Positions 3 through 14,027 of a stretch of 20,630 nucleotides of DNA are shown here, piece by piece. The position numbers and the translations under genes are program-made. The stretch comes from a virus. Location: the IMG/VR virus record IMGVR_UViG_3300039055_000063, positions 1 to 20,630 of that record. One strand, 5' to 3'. Within the stretch, counting starts at the first letter, position 1. The number at the start of each line of letters is the position of its first letter. The notes under the pieces were generated by a model, which saw nothing but the letters and a program-made list of their open reading frames with translations, was not told the DNA's origin and did not search any database.

Positions 3-74
3 GTAGATGTAAACGGTTCAATTTGGGTGCAAGGTAGTAGAGAAGAGTGTGAACTCTATCTGTATGGTGGCTAA
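3..74 (+). CDS. C-terminal end of a cassette-borne protein (partial)
   Basis: An open frame enters from the left edge and encodes 23 residues ending in a Glu/Cys/Leu/Tyr-rich tail (final residues LYLYGG) before a TAA stop. That TAA is part of the R'' core (TGGCTAAC) of the first attC-like site, the same arrangement seen for three other genes in this array. Too little is visible to assign a function. It is most likely the last part of a gene carried by the cassette upstream of the window. Confidence 0.45.
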   Translation, partial: VDVNGSIWVQGSREECELYLYGG

Positions 75-203
75 CGGTTCGCAGCTAACCGAAGTTGGCG
101 ATTACGAAGCACAAACTTTCAAATTTAAACAAATGTATAATCGAAGCACAACAGTTCATTTCAGCACTACACCGCCAATTTTGGTTAGGTGCTGTTATAA
201 GCC
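68..203 (+). repeat. attC-like site 1
   Basis: R'' is TGGCTAAC at 68-75 and R' is GTTATAAGCC at 194-203. L'' at 85-100 (CTAACCGAAGTTGGCG) pairs with L' at 173-188 (CGCCAATTTTGGTTAG) over 16 positions. The only two deviations are G-T wobbles. The spacer is 9 nt on the R'' side and 5 nt on the R' side. The variable terminal structure (101-172) is about 72 nt, so the whole site is about 136 bp, within the range of long integron attC sites. R'' supplies the stop codon of the upstream partial gene. Confidence 0.8.
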
Positions 204-228
204 GTTTTTCTTCACAAATTAGTAACAA

Positions 229-555
229 ATGGAGTTACGAATTGAACATATTTTCAGAGAAGAAATGGAAGGAGATACATCTTTTCAAGAAAAAGAAAGC
301 GGATTAAATTTGCTTTTCGGAACTAACAAATATTCCAAAGTAGAAATGAGAGAAACTTGGAATAGAGGAATTAAACACGGAATTGAAATAGGGTTGCGAA
401 GAGCAAGTTTAGAAGGACAAATGATTGAACTTAATCACAATACTCCCGAAGGAAAACATAAGGAGTTTCTTGAAAAGTTTTATCAATTGGCTGATGAATA
501 CAAATGTGCTATTCAATATCATCCCGAAGTTGGAATGATTGTAGTCGCTCGTTAA
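229..555 (+). CDS. Hypothetical protein of cassette A (108 aa)
   Basis: This is the only complete gene of cassette A (195-748). The ATG at 229 lies 33 nt after the 5' core and follows an A-rich leader (TTAGTAACAAATG), like other starts in this genome. The product is mostly hydrophilic and probably helical, rich in Glu, Lys and Arg, with no signal peptide, membrane segment or Cys/His metal cluster. It ends in a short hydrophobic run (VGMIVVAR). I do not recognise the family. The stop lies 4 nt before the R'' core of attC site 2. An overlapping frame (part of an open stretch 95-307 with a TTG start) is considered a shadow. Confidence 0.6.
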   Translation: MELRIEHIFREEMEGDTSFQEKESGLNLLFGTNKYSKVEMRETWNRGIKHGIEIGLRRASLEGQMIELNHNTPEGKHKEFLEKFYQLADEYKCAIQYHPEVGMIVVAR

Positions 556-558
556 AAT

Positions 559-755
559 GGCTTATAACGGAATACGTGTATGCGTAGGGCGTATTATTAA
601 TGATAAACTTTAATAAAAAAAATGACAGTAGAAGAATATTTTGAAGAATGGTGGACACCAAAAGAACTACCTGAACAAGGATTTAATAAAACGGCTATGT
701 TAGACTTTGCCGAAATGTACCACAAACAAGCCTTACACATACACGATGTTGTAGG
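559..755 (+). repeat. attC-like site 2, with a gene start inside its variable region
   Basis: R'' is GGCTTATAAC at 559-568 and R' is GTTGTAGG at 748-755. L'' CGTGTATGCGTA (575-586) pairs with L' TACACATACACG (734-745). The pairing is 11 of 12 with one G-T wobble. The spacers are 6 and 2 nt. The variable region (587-733) is about 147 nt and contains the ATG at 622 of the next open frame. The total of about 197 bp exceeds the usual 57-141 bp of attC sites. Confidence 0.72.
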
Positions 756-849
756 GCGAAGCGAACAGTTGCATTGCCCGCATTGTGGTCAATTAGAGCC
801 GTGTGCTGGTAATTCACCTGAAACTTGCTACCATCCGAAAGTTTGTTAG
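622..849 (+). CDS. Hybrid cassette ORF: N-terminal module of cassette A, zinc-site module of cassette B (75 aa)
   Basis: The ATG at 622 lies inside the variable region of attC site 2. The frame runs through L' and the R' core, so residues 1-42 belong to cassette A. Residue 43 is the Val encoded by the core GTT (748-750), and residues 44-75 belong to cassette B. The N-module (acidic, aromatic, with AEMYHKQALHIHD near its end) looks like a small helical domain. The C-module holds a CPHCG knuckle followed by three more cysteines, suggesting zinc binding. The stop TAG falls 12 nt before the next R''. Whether the fusion is expressed is unknown. An excised cassette B circle would instead join this C-module to the N-module at 924-1062, also in frame. 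Confidence 0.5.
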   Translation: MTVEEYFEEWWTPKELPEQGFNKTAMLDFAEMYHKQALHIHDVVGRSEQLHCPHCGQLEPCAGNSPETCYHPKVC

Positions 850-860
850 CAAGGCAATTG

Positions 861-1068
861 CCTACAACGGCTAAGGGTATGAAATCGGTTTTTTACGGAT
901 AGATAACACTAAAATTTAAACAAATGAATTTAAAGAACACAATAATTAAGCATTACAAAAACTTCTTTGATTTACACGCCAAAGGAATAGCATTAGATGA
1001 AGATGACCACTTAAACATTGATTGGGCAGAGGACTTAGTAAAAAACTGTTTTATACCCAATGTTATGC
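861..1068 (+). repeat. attC-like site 3, with a gene start inside its variable region
   Basis: R'' is CCTACAAC at 861-868 and R' is GTTATGC at 1062-1068. L'' GGGTATGA (875-882) pairs with L' TTATACCC (1051-1058), with one G-T wobble, and the pairing can extend two bases inward. The spacers are 6 and 3 nt. The variable region is 168 nt and holds the ATG at 924. The arms are nearly the same as in site 4: the left side shares TAAGGGTATGA-type sequence and the right side shares TTATACCCAATGTTA. Confidence 0.7.
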
Positions 1069-1241
1069 AATGGGTGGCGGTTAAAGAGCAACAACCTTCG
1101 GATGAAACAAAACAGTATTTAGTGCTTAGAGATGGAAATGTGGAATTTGACACTTGGTATCACAGAGATGGTAAAAGTTATTGGTATAACTATTTAGGAA
1201 TTACACATTGGGCAGAAATACCTAAGCCACCTTGTGCATAA
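924..1241 (+). CDS. Hybrid cassette ORF with C-terminal DUF551-like module (105 aa)
   Basis: The ATG at 924 sits in the variable region of attC site 3 after a leader (AAATTTAAACAAATG) that also occurs near 121-135. Residues 1-46 come from cassette B and end ...NCFIPN. Val47 is the core GTT at 1062-1064. Residues 48-105 come from cassette C and begin MQWVAVKEQQPSDE. The C-module has the layout of DUF551 proteins, which are small phage and prophage proteins starting W-[IV]-x-V and ending THW-x-x-x-P-x-PP; here the end reads ITHWAEIPKPPCA. The function of DUF551 is unknown. The DUF551 part starts exactly at the cassette boundary, at an in-frame ATG. The TAA stop is supplied by the R'' core of site 4. 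Confidence 0.6.
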   Translation: MNLKNTIIKHYKNFFDLHAKGIALDEDDHLNIDWAEDLVKNCFIPNVMQWVAVKEQQPSDETKQYLVLRDGNVEFDTWYHRDGKSYWYNYLGITHWAEIPKPPCA

Positions 1242-1449
1242 CGGTAAAGGGTATGATGTTGGTTTTTATTTTTGGGGAATTATAAACAAATATTAGATAT
1301 GAAAAATACACACGAAGAAGCCTTAGAATATGTATCAAGGCTAGAAATAGTAGAGAAAAAATGGAATAAAGCGGAGATAGCAACTGCAATGATGAGTTAT
1401 GCAGAAAAAGTAAAAAATAAAAACTGCATTATACCCAATGTTAGCCACA
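1236..1449 (+). repeat. attC-like site 4, with a gene start inside its variable region
   Basis: R'' is GCATAAC at 1236-1242 and R' is GTTAGCCACA at 1440-1449. L'' GGGTATGATG (1249-1258) pairs with L' CATTATACCC (1427-1436) in 9 of 10 positions, the exception being a G-T wobble. The spacers are 6 (GGTAAA) and 3 (AAT) nt. The variable region is about 168 nt and holds the ATG at 1299. The arms closely resemble site 3. Confidence 0.72.
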
Positions 1450-1604
1450 GTGCTTTTCGCAATATTGCTGAAGAGTTTAGAGGTTGGCAAAGACAATGGG
1501 ACTTATTTGATAAGCAAGAAATTAAAACCAAACCACCGCACTTAGATGAATTTATAAAAAACTTAGAACAGAAATACGTGGCAGGATTTAAGCATTGTGG
1601 CTAA
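1299..1604 (+). CDS. Hybrid cassette ORF: N-module of cassette C, C-module of cassette D (101 aa)
   Basis: The ATG at 1299 is preferred over an upstream TTG at 1272 in the same frame. Residues 1-47 come from cassette C and end ...KNKNCIIPN. Val48 is the core GTT at 1440-1442. The remainder comes from cassette D and begins SHSAFRNIAEEFRGW. The joint resembles the preceding gene (NCFIPNV against NCIIPNV) because the L' arm is translated in the same phase in both. The protein is charged, probably helical, and of unknown function. Its TAA stop is inside the R'' core TGTGGCTAAC of site 5. The N-module might instead belong with the DUF551 module at 1065-1241 in the excised cassette C circle. Confidence 0.55.
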   Translation: MKNTHEEALEYVSRLEIVEKKWNKAEIATAMMSYAEKVKNKNCIIPNVSHSAFRNIAEEFRGWQRQWDLFDKQEIKTKPPHLDEFIKNLEQKYVAGFKHCG

Positions 1605-1667
1605 CGGACGTGGCTATTATTAAGCGATAGCGACCCGATAGGGTTAATTATAGCCTGTGTTAGTTGC
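1596..1667 (+). repeat. attC-like site 5, canonical short form
   Basis: R'' is TGTGGCTAAC at 1596-1605 and R' is GTTAGTTGC at 1659-1667. L'' GGCTATTATTAA (1612-1623) pairs with L' TTAATTATAGCC (1644-1655) in 11 of 12 positions. The spacers are 6 (GGACGT) and 3 (TGT) nt and the loop is 20 nt. At 72 bp this site has standard attC size and layout, and it anchors the interpretation of the longer sites. Confidence 0.85.
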
Positions 1668-1697
1668 TTTTCTTTTTGCGGAATTAAAGGATAAATA

Positions 1698-2267
1698 ATG
1701 AAAGTAAAAGATTTTGAAATAAGAGAAATTGATTACCAAACGTGTTTGAGCTTTTGTAAAATTTGGCATTACTCTAAAGGTTGCCCTGCGGGTAAGGCAT
1801 ATTGGGGGCTTTTTAATGGCTTTGATATGATAGGCGTAATTTGTTACGGAGAACCTGCGATGAGACACCAAAAAGGATGTTACGGGGCAGACATAGAACT
1901 AAGACGACTGTGTTGTATCGATGACACACCCAAAAACACAGAAAGCTACTTTATAGGTAATACGCTAAAAGCCATTAAAAAGATGGGGTATAAATGTTGC
2001 ATAAGCCTTGCAGACCCCGAACACGGACACGAAGGCACAATATACAAAGCAAGCAACTTTACCTACGCGGGTAGGGAGCGGGGTGGAGGTAGTAGGGAGA
2101 TTATAATTGATGGGGAGAAAATGCACAGTAGGACAGCTTATGCCAAATTTGGAGCAAGTGGATACGCTAAATTGCAAGAGATGTTCCCTGATAAAAAAGT
2201 AATAGTTAGAAACAAGGAGCGAAAACATGTTTACTTGTATCCACTTAGCAAAAATAATTGCAACTAA
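1698..2267 (+). CDS. Mom-like DNA modification protein (GNAT-fold), cassette E
   Basis: This 189-residue protein resembles the phage Mu Mom family, which modifies adenine in DNA (in Mu, to N6-carbamoylmethyladenine) and so blocks restriction enzymes. Family-like features are an early HYSKGCPAGKAYWG segment (His24, Tyr25), a strand LFNGFDMIGVICYGEPA (39-54), an IELRRL core (66-71), and the block SLADPEHGHEGTIYKASNF (103-121) followed by TYAG. The length is a little under Mu Mom. The gene is the sole content of cassette E, bounded by matched cores GTTAGTTGC and GCAACTAAC. Its TAA stop lies in the R'' core of site 6. The start follows AAGGATAAATA, with the stop-start motif TAATG. The role as anti-restriction modification is inferred from the family. 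Confidence 0.75.
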   Translation: MKVKDFEIREIDYQTCLSFCKIWHYSKGCPAGKAYWGLFNGFDMIGVICYGEPAMRHQKGCYGADIELRRLCCIDDTPKNTESYFIGNTLKAIKKMGYKCCISLADPEHGHEGTIYKASNFTYAGRERGGGSREIIIDGEKMHSRTAYAKFGASGYAKLQEMFPDKKVIVRNKERKHVYLYPLSKNNCN

Positions 2268-2315
2268 CACAAAGCTAAGTTTTCGTGCGAAGTATAAAAT
2301 TTAGCGACTGTTAAG
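2260..2315 (+). repeat. attC-like site 6, canonical short form, last of the array
   Basis: R'' is GCAACTAAC at 2260-2268 and R' is GTTAAG at 2310-2315. L'' GCTAAGTTTT (2274-2283) pairs with L' AAAATTTAGC (2296-2305) in 9 of 10 positions, with a G-T wobble. The spacers are 5 and 4 nt and the loop is 12 nt. No further attC-like site was found downstream, so position 2310 marks the right end of the array. The phage promoter begins 23 nt later. Confidence 0.8.
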
Positions 2316-2337
2316 AATCGTTACGAAGGAATGATGA

Positions 2338-2762: not shown

Positions 2763-3431
2763 ATGAATGCACAAGAGAAGTTGGCTGCGATTCAACAGGA
2801 GTTAAAAGCACCTAAGAACCAGTACAATAAATTTGGTAAATATTATTACCGTTCAGCCGAGGATATCCTTGAGGCTGTAAAACCCTATGAGAAGAAACAC
2901 AAGGTGACGTTTCGTATTACCGAAGAAATCATTTCCATCGACAATTTGGACAACCCTTTGGTTTACATCAAGTCGATAGCCACAATGACCGACCATGAGT
3001 CAGGTCAGGTGATTGGTTCAGCAGGAACAGCAATCATTGACTTTGAGGCTAAAGGAATGCAGATGCCACAACGTACAGGTGCAGCAAGTAGCTACGCCAA
3101 GAAGTATGCGTTGGGTAACCTGTTGCTCTTGGATGACACCAAGGATTCCGATGCAATCAACGAACACGGAAAAGGGTTACAGAAAGCACCCGCAACACCA
3201 CCCGCACCGAAAGACACACCTAAACCTCAGCCTTCTGCAGTCAAATCTGCCGTAAAACCTACACTCAAAGCTATGAGCAAAGAGGAAAAGACTTCTTTTC
3301 TTAAAGGAATAGGTGAGGGTAAATTCAGCTTAGTTGAAAAACATTTGTCCAAGTACAAAAGTGACGCAAACAAAAAGGCTGTGGTAGCAGCATTAGATAA
3401 CGCAAAAAAGGGCGGGTCAAGCAAGTCATAA
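2763..3431 (+). CDS. ERF-family single-strand annealing protein
   Basis: The 222-residue product carries the ERF core in its first half: NKFGKYYYRSAEDILEAVKP near residue 20, a central strand region, and the signature GAASSYAKKYALGNLLLLDD, followed by DSDA. ERF proteins anneal complementary single strands in phage recombination and genome circularisation. After the core comes a Pro/Lys/Ala-rich linker (KAPATPPAPKDTPKPQP) and a basic C-terminal tail ending in Lys-Gly-Gly-Ser, possibly for DNA or SSB contacts. It is followed after 9 nt by a RecE-like exonuclease, the usual annealase/exonuclease pair. Confidence 0.9.
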   Translation: MNAQEKLAAIQQELKAPKNQYNKFGKYYYRSAEDILEAVKPYEKKHKVTFRITEEIISIDNLDNPLVYIKSIATMTDHESGQVIGSAGTAIIDFEAKGMQMPQRTGAASSYAKKYALGNLLLLDDTKDSDAINEHGKGLQKAPATPPAPKDTPKPQPSAVKSAVKPTLKAMSKEEKTSFLKGIGEGKFSLVEKHLSKYKSDANKKAVVAALDNAKKGGSSKS

Positions 3432-5709: not shown

Positions 5710-6372
5710 ATGAAAGTTAAAGTTCAAATTATAGGCAATGATGACCATTACGAGATTAAGTCTCCGATGCACTTCCTTCCTAGCTCAGGAGACACTTTGA
5801 TTTTCAACTTCGAGAAATACAAAGTAAGAGAGGTCATACATGACACATGCGAGAACAATAGTAACCAAGCTGTTGAAGTCTTACTTAGGGTCTCCATGCC
5901 GCAGTCTCGTCAGCCAGTCGAGAGACACCCTGAGATAAGCGCAGAAGTACTAAACTATTTGTACGGGACATTGCTTAAGCAGAGGAATGATTTCACACCT
6001 GAAAACGTTCCCAAGGCGTTCTTGGAATTTATATCCGCACGGGTGAACGAAGGACACACGGTCGATGAAATGAAGGCTGTTGCTTACATCAAACACAAAG
6101 AGTGGAAAGGTACTAAAGATGAGAAGTATATCAGGGCTGATACGTTGTATCGCCCTACTAACTTCCAGAGATATCTGGCTGAGGTGCAAGCGAAGAAACC
6201 TAAGTGGAACGTTGTAAGCACTAAAGAACAAAAAGCAATCATCAAGCAACTTAACTCTTATGGAGTGCGTGGTGAGCGCAATGAAGAAACAGACCGACTA
6301 GCTAAAGAACTCATGGCTACTGGTTACAACAAGAAAGAGTTCCTTAACCTTTATTTAAAAGAACAGATTTAA
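5710..6372 (+). CDS. Replisome organiser-like protein (TIGR02220-type C-terminal domain)
   Basis: The start is ATG 5710; the upstream open frame only runs through the tRNA-like element. The 220-residue product has an unrecognised beta-rich N-terminal part (about 1-65). A central/C-terminal domain begins near EISAEVLNYLYGTL, continues with a long helix (FLEFISARVNEGHTVDEMKA) and ends with EWKGTKDEKYIRADTLY and FQRYLAEV. This order matches the conserved phage protein C-terminal domain found in replication initiators and helicase loaders. A third helical segment (residues 155-220) is less clear. Its stop overlaps the start of the primase-helicase (TAATG). It probably binds DNA or loads the helicase, by inference from family and context. 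Confidence 0.72.
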   Translation: MKVKVQIIGNDDHYEIKSPMHFLPSSGDTLIFNFEKYKVREVIHDTCENNSNQAVEVLLRVSMPQSRQPVERHPEISAEVLNYLYGTLLKQRNDFTPENVPKAFLEFISARVNEGHTVDEMKAVAYIKHKEWKGTKDEKYIRADTLYRPTNFQRYLAEVQAKKPKWNVVSTKEQKAIIKQLNSYGVRGERNEETDRLAKELMATGYNKKEFLNLYLKEQI

Positions 6373-11204: not shown

Positions 11205-14027
11205 ATGACACAAGAGCGAAAAGTAGCATTCGGAGACCTAGGTTTTATAACATTTACAAGAACCTATGCAAGAACGAAAAAAGATGGCAGCAAAGAATCA
11301 TTTTCAGAAACTGTCGAGAGAGAACTAAAAGGGATTGAAAAACAACTTAAGCTAAACTTCACCAACGAAGAGAAAGAATTTTACCGAGACATGAGACATA
11401 AGATGCTCGGTTCGGTTGCGGGTCGGTTCATGTGGCAACTGGGAACAAAGACAGTAGATAAACTAGGACTGCCCAGTCTACAGAACTGTTTTACAGGTGA
11501 TACTGAGTTTGTAACTTCGGAAGGAATTAAAAAGTTCTCGGACTTTAAAGATGGGGATAAAGTTATTATAAAAGGTAATTTATCTTGGAAAGAAGCTACT
11601 GTTAAGTCTTTCGGTAAACAGGAAACTGTGGCTTTAACGGTAAGGCGAGGTAATAGCAAAAGAACAGAAGTTATATTCACTACTGCTAACCACAGGTGGA
11701 TTGTTGGTAATAAGTTTGGAAAGAAACAATCAATCAAAACTACTTCTGAGTTAACAGAGGGGATGATTCTTCAACAAACCGCATTGAGAACTAACACTCA
11801 TAATATTCAAATATGTAATGTTGGACAACAACATGGTCTTGTGTTTGGTGATGGTCATTATAATGAAAATGCACAATGTTGTGCTTTTGTTCCATGTGGT
11901 GACTCAATTGATGAATATAAAGAAGTGTTTCATTTTACAGGCGACACAAAAGAAATAACAGGTTTACCAAATAACTGGAAAGAAATACCCAGTTATTCAA
12001 TGAATAAACATTATCTTCTTGGTTTTTTATCTGGTTGGTTTGCAGCAGATGGTTGTGTTGAAAAGAACGGAACGCTAACTCTTTCTAATAAATCAAGAGA
12101 AGTTTTAATGGAAGCAAAAGGGTTATTTGCTAAATTAGATATTTATACATCAGAGCCTAAATTATCAAGAGAAAAGAATCCCTTCGATGGCTCTGAATCT
12201 GAACTTTGGAAATTGTCAATAAACAGAGATAATATAAACGATAATTTCTTTATTCTTCAAAAACACAAAGAAAGGTTTGTTGGGTATTCCAAGCCTCAAC
12301 TTTGGAAAGTTGTGTCTGTTGAAAGTACAGGACTTGAAGAAGATGTATTTTGTGTGTCAGAGCCAGATAAAGAAGAATTTACTTTATCTAACGGAATCCT
12401 TACAAAGAACTGTGCATTCGTTGTAATCGATGACCCTATTAAGCCCTTCACATGGGCTATGGACATGTTAATGCTCGGCTCAGGAGTAGGTTACTCCATA
12501 AAGCGAGAGCATGTGTATAAGCTACCCAAGGTAAAGAGAGGTAGAATCAAGATTGAACGATGGGATGACAAACAAGCAGATTTCATCGTACCCGACACAA
12601 GAGAGGGTTGGGTGAAGCTGTTGGGGAAAGTACTCAAGGCTTATTTCTACTCAGGCGAAGGATTCACATACAGTACACAGCTTGTACGTGACCGTGGTGA
12701 GAAGATTGAAGGATTTGGAGGTGTAGCGTCTGGCGCAGGGATTCTCGTAGAAGGGATGAATTATATCTGCGAAGTACTGGACAAGCGCAAAGGAAAGCAG
12801 TTACGCCCGATTGACTGCTTGGATATTATGAACATTATCGGAATGATAGTGGTCGCAGGTAACGTTAGGCGTTCAGCGCAGATTGCAATCGGTGATTACG
12901 ATGACCTAGAATACTTAAAAGCTAAACGTTGGGATTTAGGTCAGATACCTAAATGGAGGGCAATGTCAAACAACAGCGTGGATGTCCACGATGTCAAAGA
13001 CCTACCTCAAGAGTTTTGGGACACGTATCAGCAAGGAGAGCCTTACGGACTTATTAACCTTGAACTATCCCGTAAAGTCGGAAGGTTGGGCGAAACACAA
13101 TATCCTGACCCTGACGTGGAAGGATATAACCCATGCGCAGAGCAGTCCTTAAACAACTTTGAGACTTGCTGCTTGGCTGAAATTTATTTGCCCAACATCA
13201 AGGACTACGAAACCTTTAAAAAGGTAATGACGATGCTCTATCGAGTGAACAAGCACAGTCTTGCGCTCAAGTCGCACCAAAAAGAGACTGAAAAGGTCGT
13301 GAACAAGAATATGAGAATGGGGATTGGGGTAACTGGCGTGATGATGGCTACCGAGGAACAGCTTTCTTGGTTGAAGCCTGCATACGAATACTTAAGAGAA
13401 TATGATAAAACTTATTCGAAGGTTATGGGGTTTCCTGAGTCTATCAAGCTTACCACTGTTAAGCCTAGCGGTACTCTATCTTTATTGGCAGGAGTTACGT
13501 CAGGTGTACACCCTGCTACGGCAGGACGATATTTCATACGAAGAATTAGAATAGCGTCTGACTCACCCCTTGTTGAGGTGATAAAGTCCCACGGTTACCA
13601 TACAGAGTACCAAAAGAACCTTGATGGGTCTGATGACTATTCTACGATTGTAGCTGAGTTTCCTTGTCAATACAATGGAGATATTATCTCAGCAGATGAA
13701 ATGAGCGTGTTCGAACAGCTTGATACTGTTAAGTTCATGCAAGAGAACTGGTCAGATAACTCTGTGTCTGTGACAGCTTACTATAAGAAAGAAGAACTCG
13801 ATGAGTTACGTGAGTACTTGGAGGAGAACTTTAAAGACAACTTTAAGACCCTTTCGTTCCTGCTTTATTCTGGACACGGGTTTGCGCAAGCACCGTTTGA
13901 GCCGATTACTAAGGAGCAGTACGAATACCTATCCGCTAAAGTTAAGCCTATCACCTCTGCAGAGATTCACGAGGATGATATGGAAGAACTGGGAAGTTGT
14001 GGGATTGGTTCTTGTCCCGTGAGATAA
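11205..14027 (+). CDS. nrdJ: Adenosylcobalamin-dependent (class II, monomeric) ribonucleotide reductase with intein
   Basis: The 940-residue precursor contains a 308-residue intein (95-402) and a reductase of about 632 residues. Reductase marks are NCAFVVIDDP with Cys403 (after splicing, the redox cysteine equivalent to Cys119 of the Lactobacillus enzyme), GSGVGYS, GNVRRSAQIA, and NPCAEQSLNNFETC with the thiyl-radical cysteine Cys644. Cys655, 11 residues later, is the partner redox cysteine. KPSGTLSLLAGVTSGVHP follows, and CGIGSCPVR at the C-terminus (Cys932, Cys937) is the re-reducing pair. The layout fits the monomeric triphosphate reductase family, which needs vitamin B12 and no oxygen-derived radical. 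It makes dNTPs for phage replication. It is shorter than bacterial homologues. Confidence 0.92.
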   Translation: MTQERKVAFGDLGFITFTRTYARTKKDGSKESFSETVERELKGIEKQLKLNFTNEEKEFYRDMRHKMLGSVAGRFMWQLGTKTVDKLGLPSLQNCFTGDTEFVTSEGIKKFSDFKDGDKVIIKGNLSWKEATVKSFGKQETVALTVRRGNSKRTEVIFTTANHRWIVGNKFGKKQSIKTTSELTEGMILQQTALRTNTHNIQICNVGQQHGLVFGDGHYNENAQCCAFVPCGDSIDEYKEVFHFTGDTKEITGLPNNWKEIPSYSMNKHYLLGFLSGWFAADGCVEKNGTLTLSNKSREVLMEAKGLFAKLDIYTSEPKLSREKNPFDGSESELWKLSINRDNINDNFFILQKHKERFVGYSKPQLWKVVSVESTGLEEDVFCVSEPDKEEFTLSNGILTKNCAFVVIDDPIKPFTWAMDMLMLGSGVGYSIKREHVYKLPKVKRGRIKIERWDDKQADFIVPDTREGWVKLLGKVLKAYFYSGEGFTYSTQLVRDRGEKIEGFGGVASGAGILVEGMNYICEVLDKRKGKQLRPIDCLDIMNIIGMIVVAGNVRRSAQIAIGDYDDLEYLKAKRWDLGQIPKWRAMSNNSVDVHDVKDLPQEFWDTYQQGEPYGLINLELSRKVGRLGETQYPDPDVEGYNPCAEQSLNNFETCCLAEIYLPNIKDYETFKKVMTMLYRVNKHSLALKSHQKETEKVVNKNMRMGIGVTGVMMATEEQLSWLKPAYEYLREYDKTYSKVMGFPESIKLTTVKPSGTLSLLAGVTSGVHPATAGRYFIRRIRIASDSPLVEVIKSHGYHTEYQKNLDGSDDYSTIVAEFPCQYNGDIISADEMSVFEQLDTVKFMQENWSDNSVSVTAYYKKEELDELREYLEENFKDNFKTLSFLLYSGHGFAQAPFEPITKEQYEYLSAKVKPITSAEIHEDDMEELGSCGIGSCPVR
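11487..12410 (+). mobile_element. Intein with LAGLIDADG homing endonuclease, inserted in nrdJ
   Basis: The intein begins at Cys95 (CFTGDTEFVTSEG, block A), has block B FTTANHRWIV (TxxH type, residues 158-167), and ends SNGILTKN at 402 before Cys403 of the host protein. Two dodecapeptide-like motifs, GLVFGDG (211-217) and LLGFLSGWFAADG (271-283), identify a LAGLIDADG endonuclease. The penultimate residue is Lys instead of the usual His, which may slow or alter C-terminal cleavage. The segment looks more A/T-rich than the surrounding gene, consistent with separate origin. It interrupts the reductase directly before a redox cysteine, so the enzyme should be inactive until spliced. Confidence 0.92.

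Follow-up and report, generated by a model that had tools for sequence, protein, structure and literature searches.

Long attC sites of phage cassette arrays carry N-terminal gene halves joined in frame to C-terminal halves in the next cassette, with new N/C combinations among related viruses

The window, that is, the whole stretch of DNA analyzed here, is the 20,630-nt viral record IMGVR_UViG_3300039055_000063. Its positions 66-2319 form an array of six attC (integron-type) sites, all in the same direct orientation and all with recognizable R'', L'', L' and R' boxes. In three of these sites the front of a gene lies inside the attC itself and is read, through L' and the crossover triplet, into the cassette that follows. 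Among related viral arrays such fronts (N-halves) occur in new combinations with the segments behind them (C-halves), and the breaks fall at R' and at R''. The reading that we prefer, with a probability of roughly two in three (0.68), is that these are phage attC arrays without an integrase, in which some attCs took over gene fronts and on which an IntI of the host would act in trans, using both strands. The broader proposal, on which we place even odds, is one of combinatorial protein assembly: phages, mainly of Bacteroidota, would bank N- and C-halves, and hairpin recombination at R' and R'' would turn them into in-frame two-part proteins, likely of use in changing host-takeover or anti-defense proteins.

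The array was delimited with a chain detector that works on DNA only, scoring the R'/R'' inverted repeat of each cassette and L''/L' pairing and ignoring open reading frames. It chained exactly six junctions, with the G of the crossover at 194, 748, 1062, 1440, 1659 and 2310 (score 20.3). When 240 other viral loci (L020-L259) were run, only L071 yielded a chain of at least two sites scoring at least 6, and this locus proved to be a true relative. Each cassette begins and ends with mutually reverse-complementary sequences, as seen for 194-208/554-568 in body A, 1062-1078/1226-1242 in body C and 1440-1455/1590-1605 in body D. The features are collected in Table 1. Bodies A and E conform to the classical cassette, in which a complete open reading frame is followed by its attC, and the Mom-like gene of body E is likely to be anti-restriction cargo. 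Bodies B, C and D do not conform, being C-halves.

Table 1. Parts of the attC array in the window and the annealing protein gene downstream of it
Feature	Position	Strand	Description
attC site 1	66..203	+	R'' 66-75, R' from G194; no N-half in Val phase
Cassette body A	194..568	+	Self-starting gene 229-555, 108 aa, no family match
attC site 2	559..757	+	R'' 559-568, L'' ~578-587, L' ~737-745, R' from G748; N-half N2 (622-747) inside the variable region
Cassette body B	748..868	+	Headless C-half C2 748-846, stop 847-849, zinc-ribbon-like
attC site 3	859..1071	+	R'' 859-868, R' from G1062; carries N-half N3 (924-1061)
Cassette body C	1062..1242	+	C-half C3 1062-1238, stop 1239-1241; DUF551 (PF04448)
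attC site 4	1233..1449	+	R'' 1233-1242, R' from G1440; carries N-half N4 (1299-1439)
Cassette body D	1440..1605	+	Headless C-half C4 1440-1601, stop 1602-1604 within R''
attC site 5	1596..1668	+	Short, 53 nt from R'' to R'; no N-half
Cassette body E	1659..2268	+	Self-starting Mom-like DNA modification gene 1698-2267 (PF25680, E 6e-34)
attC site 6	2259..2319	+	Short, 41 nt; final site of the array, adjoins the phage backbone
ERF single-strand annealing protein	2763..3431	+	Possible agent of homologous exchange

Sites 2, 3 and 4 are long: counted from where R'' ends up to G^TT, they measure 179, 193 and 197 nt. In each of them L'' is followed by a leader rich in A, an ATG and 42-47 codons. Their L' boxes are translated as ..IHD, ..IPN and ..IPN, and the crossover GTT is read as Val. 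In bodies B, C and D the first base already belongs to an open frame, and the stop is at or near the body's own R'', so that continuous frames span the joints at 622-849, 924-1241 and 1299-1604. An earlier, sequence-only reading of this DNA had described frames that run from the variable region through L' and R' into the next cassette, with GTT in the same Val phase at 748-750, 1062-1064 and 1440-1442; all of these coordinates were correct and the phase was confirmed. Its statement that cassettes B and C contain no complete gene also stands: both bodies are C-halves, and the N-halves reside in the attCs. In the N3|C3 protein the junction Val is residue 47, and the Pfam match of DUF551 begins two residues further on, at 49. 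The second codon of this C-half is an ATG (1065), unlike in most related C-halves. It had further been pointed out that circularization would join each of these cassettes to the N-half in its own attC. The circular-order frames are indeed intact (N3+C2, 79 aa, for cassette B; N4+DUF551, 106 aa, for cassette C), and a search of relatives for these two genes found neither combination.

We examined whether the arrangement extends beyond the window by scanning IMG/VR with three L''...L'-GTT DNA patterns that are blind to reading frame; the comparative data are metagenomic contigs throughout. The scan yielded 116 different viral sites in this length range, and 100 of them had a Val-phase N-half that is open through GTT and at least 90 nt long. 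Nine others, all with one type of L''/L', were open in phase +1, the third phase was never used, and seven sites carried no N-half, about five of these resembling chance matches. In simulation, 2% of attCs had a Val-phase N-half that was 90 nt or longer and reached the junction without a stop. In bacterial genome contigs (Cochleicola, Flaviramulus, Crocinitomicaceae and Marinilabiliaceae) none of 10 sites with the same motif was open in the Val frame, and in the host-like family to which Cochleicola belongs, 397 genomes gave a single, chance-looking match to the N-site pattern. Thus, the N-bearing attC is essentially viral. A 14-base L'R' pattern that was also tried on viral contigs gave nearly all chance matches, and its loci were reused as negative controls.

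Most attCs of the parsed arrays carry no N-half. Short sites of 38-56 and 70-84 nt lack a start codon, some sites of 105-125 nt have short N-halves, and sites of 210-280 nt have longer ones. Presence of an N-half is tightly coupled to the nature of the following body: bodies were open to R'' in 56 of 69 cases after an N-half of at least 36 nt and in 6 of 103 otherwise (odds ratio 70, P 1e-25). In a separate count an open C-half followed the N-attC in 57 of 58 instances, implying that shuffling, if free, must be followed by selection, or else is restricted. An ATG is missing from the first 15 codons of 99 of 122 C-halves.

The nine phase +1 sites bear on the earlier claim that any reshuffling would keep the frame. 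This holds for about 92% of the N-bearing sites; it does not hold throughout, because 9 of 109 use the second phase and most attCs have no N-half at all. In the second class of N-bearing attCs (L'' GTGTATGATTA and similar) the junction is read as TGT, Cys. Members were seen at 6095, 7577 and 7928 of L296, at 1275 of L298, and in L430, L441, L448, L449, L450 and L453. Cassettes of the two attC classes would consequently be frame-incompatible.

Names for the array proteins are few. Pfam and PHROGs recognized hardly anything except DUF551 and Mom. When two N|C proteins were compared with the INPHARED phages by tblastn, no relatives of the array were retrieved, only distant DUF551 proteins in Pseudomonas phages. 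For two N|C families AlphaFold gave poor models (pLDDT 66 and 42). Evidence that the N-halves are coding came from substitution patterns. Over 12 pairs of N-halves with differing C-halves, pN/pS was 0.31, pointing to constraint on the encoded protein. The hairpin is likewise maintained. Outside the search anchor, L'' and L' paired at 86% of positions as compared with 58% for re-dealt partners (maximum of 500 shuffles, 66%), and at 95% versus 72% (maximum, 83%) in a second motif class; the covariation rests on two of the three motif classes, the third being nearly invariant. The long-range L''/L' complementarity proposed beforehand thus exceeds that of shuffled partners, and the N-segments are under a double constraint, as hairpin and as protein.

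Complementarity between cassette ends averaged 0.78-1.0 across the first nine positions in 144 viral bodies. Position 11 of the end repeat (e.g. 1450/1595 in the window) is a fixed non-Watson-Crick position, in most cases a G.T (83 of the 144 bodies), and positions 12-15 pair again, beyond the R box. The L stem holds a matching fixed G.T. No bulge was seen in the phage stems; a one-position G.T, which is an A.C mismatch on the bottom strand, was found in 94 of 111 sites.

According to the sequence-only reading, a given N-module should be found with different C-modules, the switch falling exactly on the Val codon. Such cases were encountered many times, and neither of the outcomes named beforehand as refuting the idea appeared, namely one N/C pairing everywhere without breaks at GTT, or L''/L' complementarity no higher than in shuffled sequences. 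The 122 N|C proteins fell into 102 N clusters and 102 C clusters, and 11 of the 14 N clusters with at least two members had differing C-halves. One C family (VSQQRELL..) stands behind nine N families. DUF551 stands behind at least four N-halves and occurs twice in L319, with different N-halves. Near-identical N-halves (95-98% DNA identity) are paired with unrelated C-halves, and the converse also occurs. For the pairs L390/L383, L387/L393, L381/L382 and L260/L269, identity is 90-100% from about position -180 to the junction and about 50% on either side, falling to background a few bases from GTT. Alternative joints recur (L383/L400/L402 versus L390/L417; L381/L388/L413/L414 versus L382/L395; L260/L268/L311 versus L269/L279), and since each is present in several independent assemblies, assembly chimeras are excluded for these cases. 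The parts of the window behave alike. Body B (733-869) is found in L467 at 92% DNA identity with another N-half before it and another attC after it. N2 is joined in L466 (3939-4250) to another zinc-ribbon C-half, apparently as a fixed form of two halves, because the GTT/L' joint is not intact there. The N3|DUF551 pairing is retained in L001, with the break just past R''.

Comparison of the neighbors of attC pairs of at least 75% identity, the remaining pairs being fully syntenic or ended by a contig end, showed which unit moves. Left and right neighbors were different/different in 15 pairs, different/same in three and same/different in none. Exchange of plain cassettes through the bottom strand predicts that a body is kept with its own attC and that the right neighbor changes, for which the linker-pair table contained 0 cases. 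The mobile unit that had been foreseen, a C-half plus the following attC, therefore does not describe the block that is usually conserved. In most cases the shared part was the attC by itself, sometimes the attC with the following body and sometimes the body alone. L385 and L423 have the C-body and at least 600 nt beyond it in common and differ in the N-attC, which is the sole clean break at R' only. Taken together, the neighbor counts and this pair indicate that R' and R'' are both exchange points; with breaks at R'' as well as at GTT, the swapped unit is often the attC itself.

In these arrays a long attC (about 170-200 nt, also 105-125 or 210-280 nt) houses a ribosome-binding leader, a start codon and an N-module, and the joint consists of the translated L' plus the crossover triplet (I-P-x-V, L-T-L-T-D-V or similar). 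The next body begins as an open frame, usually without a start, and its stop coincides with its own R'' or lies slightly ahead of it. On the reading that we prefer, exchange at G^TT would place new C-halves behind an N-half or new N-halves before a C-half, in frame. The integron integrase would be supplied in trans by the host and act on the phage hairpins. Hairpins of the bottom strand would give breaks at R' (GTT); those of the top strand, presumably competent because their stems lack the bulged bases that direct strand choice, would give breaks at R''. It is known that attCs recombine as folded bottom strands at R', that deletion or inversion of the extrahelical bases lets the top strand recombine, at R'', and that substitution of the variable terminal region changes little (PMC2727003). 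The published top-strand recombination at R'' and the lack of a bulge in the phage stems led us to propose a host integrase working on both strands, and recombination of both strands would account for the separate exchange of attCs and of bodies. We infer that the joined genes are expressed and that new combinations are selected for function.

A search for the enzyme was conducted. The window record, which may be a fragment, contains no tyrosine recombinase and no intI or attI with the array, and no integron integrase above the family cut-off was found in 36 related viral records. Such integrases exceeded the cut-off in 46 of 148 Bacteroidota genomes. The attCs beside the chromosomal Bacteroidota integrases differ from the phage sites, being 76-115 nt long with GCGTTTAAGC stems and no N-half, which counts against the host-integrase route. 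Near arrays of the Cochleicola type, only Xer-like matches below the cut-off were obtained. Several phage attC sites are substrates of IntI1, one of them from Polaribacter phage P12002L (PMC9892861). The array of this phage was also recovered by our detector. An N-attC in a Maribacter contig (G041:C159:23313-23499; L375/L350) lies about 1.3 kb from a gene for a 289-aa phage-type tyrosine recombinase, suggesting that some arrays sit in temperate or integrative elements.

Three other explanations were weighed. The main one, ordinary phage recombination, which we regard as unlikely, would have an annealase such as ERF join replicating DNAs at short conserved boxes, the attC boxes being mere homology anchors or remnants of an older integron origin. 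The phages have no integrase and the window encodes ERF; both conserved ends of the attC are break points, and the L''-leader and L'-R' stretches provide 15-30 nt of similarity even between unrelated N-attCs. All this would suit an annealase. It leaves unexplained, however, the inverted-repeat cassette ends kept in the 144 bodies and the L''/L' covariation, and bodies with little similarity near R'' nonetheless break at the R'' box. Kept end repeats, covariation and R'' breaks are marks of hairpin substrates of a tyrosine recombinase.

It is rather improbable that the N|C genes are long-fixed two-domain genes with inert hairpins, whose differing pairings reflect ancient divergence. The matching of N- and C-halves in 57 of 58 cases, the conservation of N3|DUF551 in the window and L001 and the L466 fusion without an intact GTT are consistent with this view, yet N-attCs that are 95-98% identical between unrelated neighbors on both sides imply recent exchange, and R'/R'' and L''/L' complementarity has been maintained under change. 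The last possibility, namely long frames that arose by chance over AT-rich attC-like repeats or chimeric metagenome assemblies, draws on the facts that AT-rich DNA commonly has short open reading frames and that a single contig could be chimeric. For the family as a whole it is already refuted by the 86% of real sites with an N-half versus 2% of simulated ones, the recurrence of alternative joints in two to four independent assemblies each, the closed chromosomal sites with the same motif and the pN/pS of 0.31.

Shufflons (PilV/Rci) also change C-terminal segments through a recombination site that is read in frame. In shufflons a dedicated recombinase flips the segments where they lie, and the single N-part in front of them is constant. 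The viral arrays are unlike them in that both halves vary, attC-bounded units appear to pass from phage to phage and a recombinase gene is absent; in the window the sites are direct and the record lacks a recombinase gene. Nearer relatives are the phage CALINs, clusters of attCs without an integrase (Qi et al. 2023), in which each cassette is described as an open reading frame plus attC (PMC9892861). As in these, the window has several co-oriented attCs in a phage without an integrase, and anti-restriction-like cargo is common to both (Mom in the window, methyltransferases in phage CALINs; PMC9892861). Unlike in these, cassettes B and C of the window contain no complete gene, and the gene crosses the attC. 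Sites of similar form to those in the window are found in P12002L (L380, KR136259), where a 188-nt attC at 39518-39706 on the minus strand encloses a complete 44-aa open reading frame, P12002L_0057. This frame stops before L', so that no joint is formed, unlike in window sites 2-4.

The sequence-only reading knew of no described integron system that builds chimeric proteins in this way. Our search of open-licence papers on integrons with chimeric proteins or domain shuffling likewise found no described system, and the claim needs qualification only for a one-off precedent. GCUF1-OXA-28 arose in a class 1 integron from the clinic when IntI1 inserted a cassette, and its frame passes through an attC into the next cassette; the protein and the circular cassette were both demonstrated. 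The OXA-28 gene itself possesses a start and a signal peptide, and its product is less effective as a fusion (Hocquet et al. 2012, PMC3375312). This is a single accident, whereas dozens of viral arrays have N- and C-halves made to fit together at the joint in a fixed phase. Fused cassettes such as ant(3'')-Ii/aac(6')-IId and blaGES-1/aacA4 have joined coding regions, some yielding one bifunctional protein; they are permanent, having lost the intervening attC, whereas the viral joint is an intact attC (PMC8876359). The fixed form in L466 may be akin to them. We found no description of attCs that systematically carry N-halves, are joined in fixed phase to headless C-halves and are recombined across phages. 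Such arrays are a variant of the phage attC array and may deserve the status of a system of their own.

Integrons are known to shuffle whole genes. With the attC within coding sequence, parts of proteins would be shuffled, the frame being built in, and viruses would gain a one-step route to new small proteins, with exchange boundaries that can be read from sequence. The near-identical attC units beside different bodies bear on the question of how attCs attach to new genes, and the arrays supply test material in the form of attC hairpins that are possibly recombined on either strand.

Beside ERF, the backbone of the window encodes a PD-(D/E)XK nuclease, a BT4734-type N-terminal domain, DUF3127, ThyX and a tRNA cluster. 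The BT4734-like and DUF3127 domains, together with the A-rich leaders, point to a Bacteroidota host. At 11205-14027 a class II ribonucleotide reductase of 940 aa with a LAGLIDADG (intein-like) insert is encoded.
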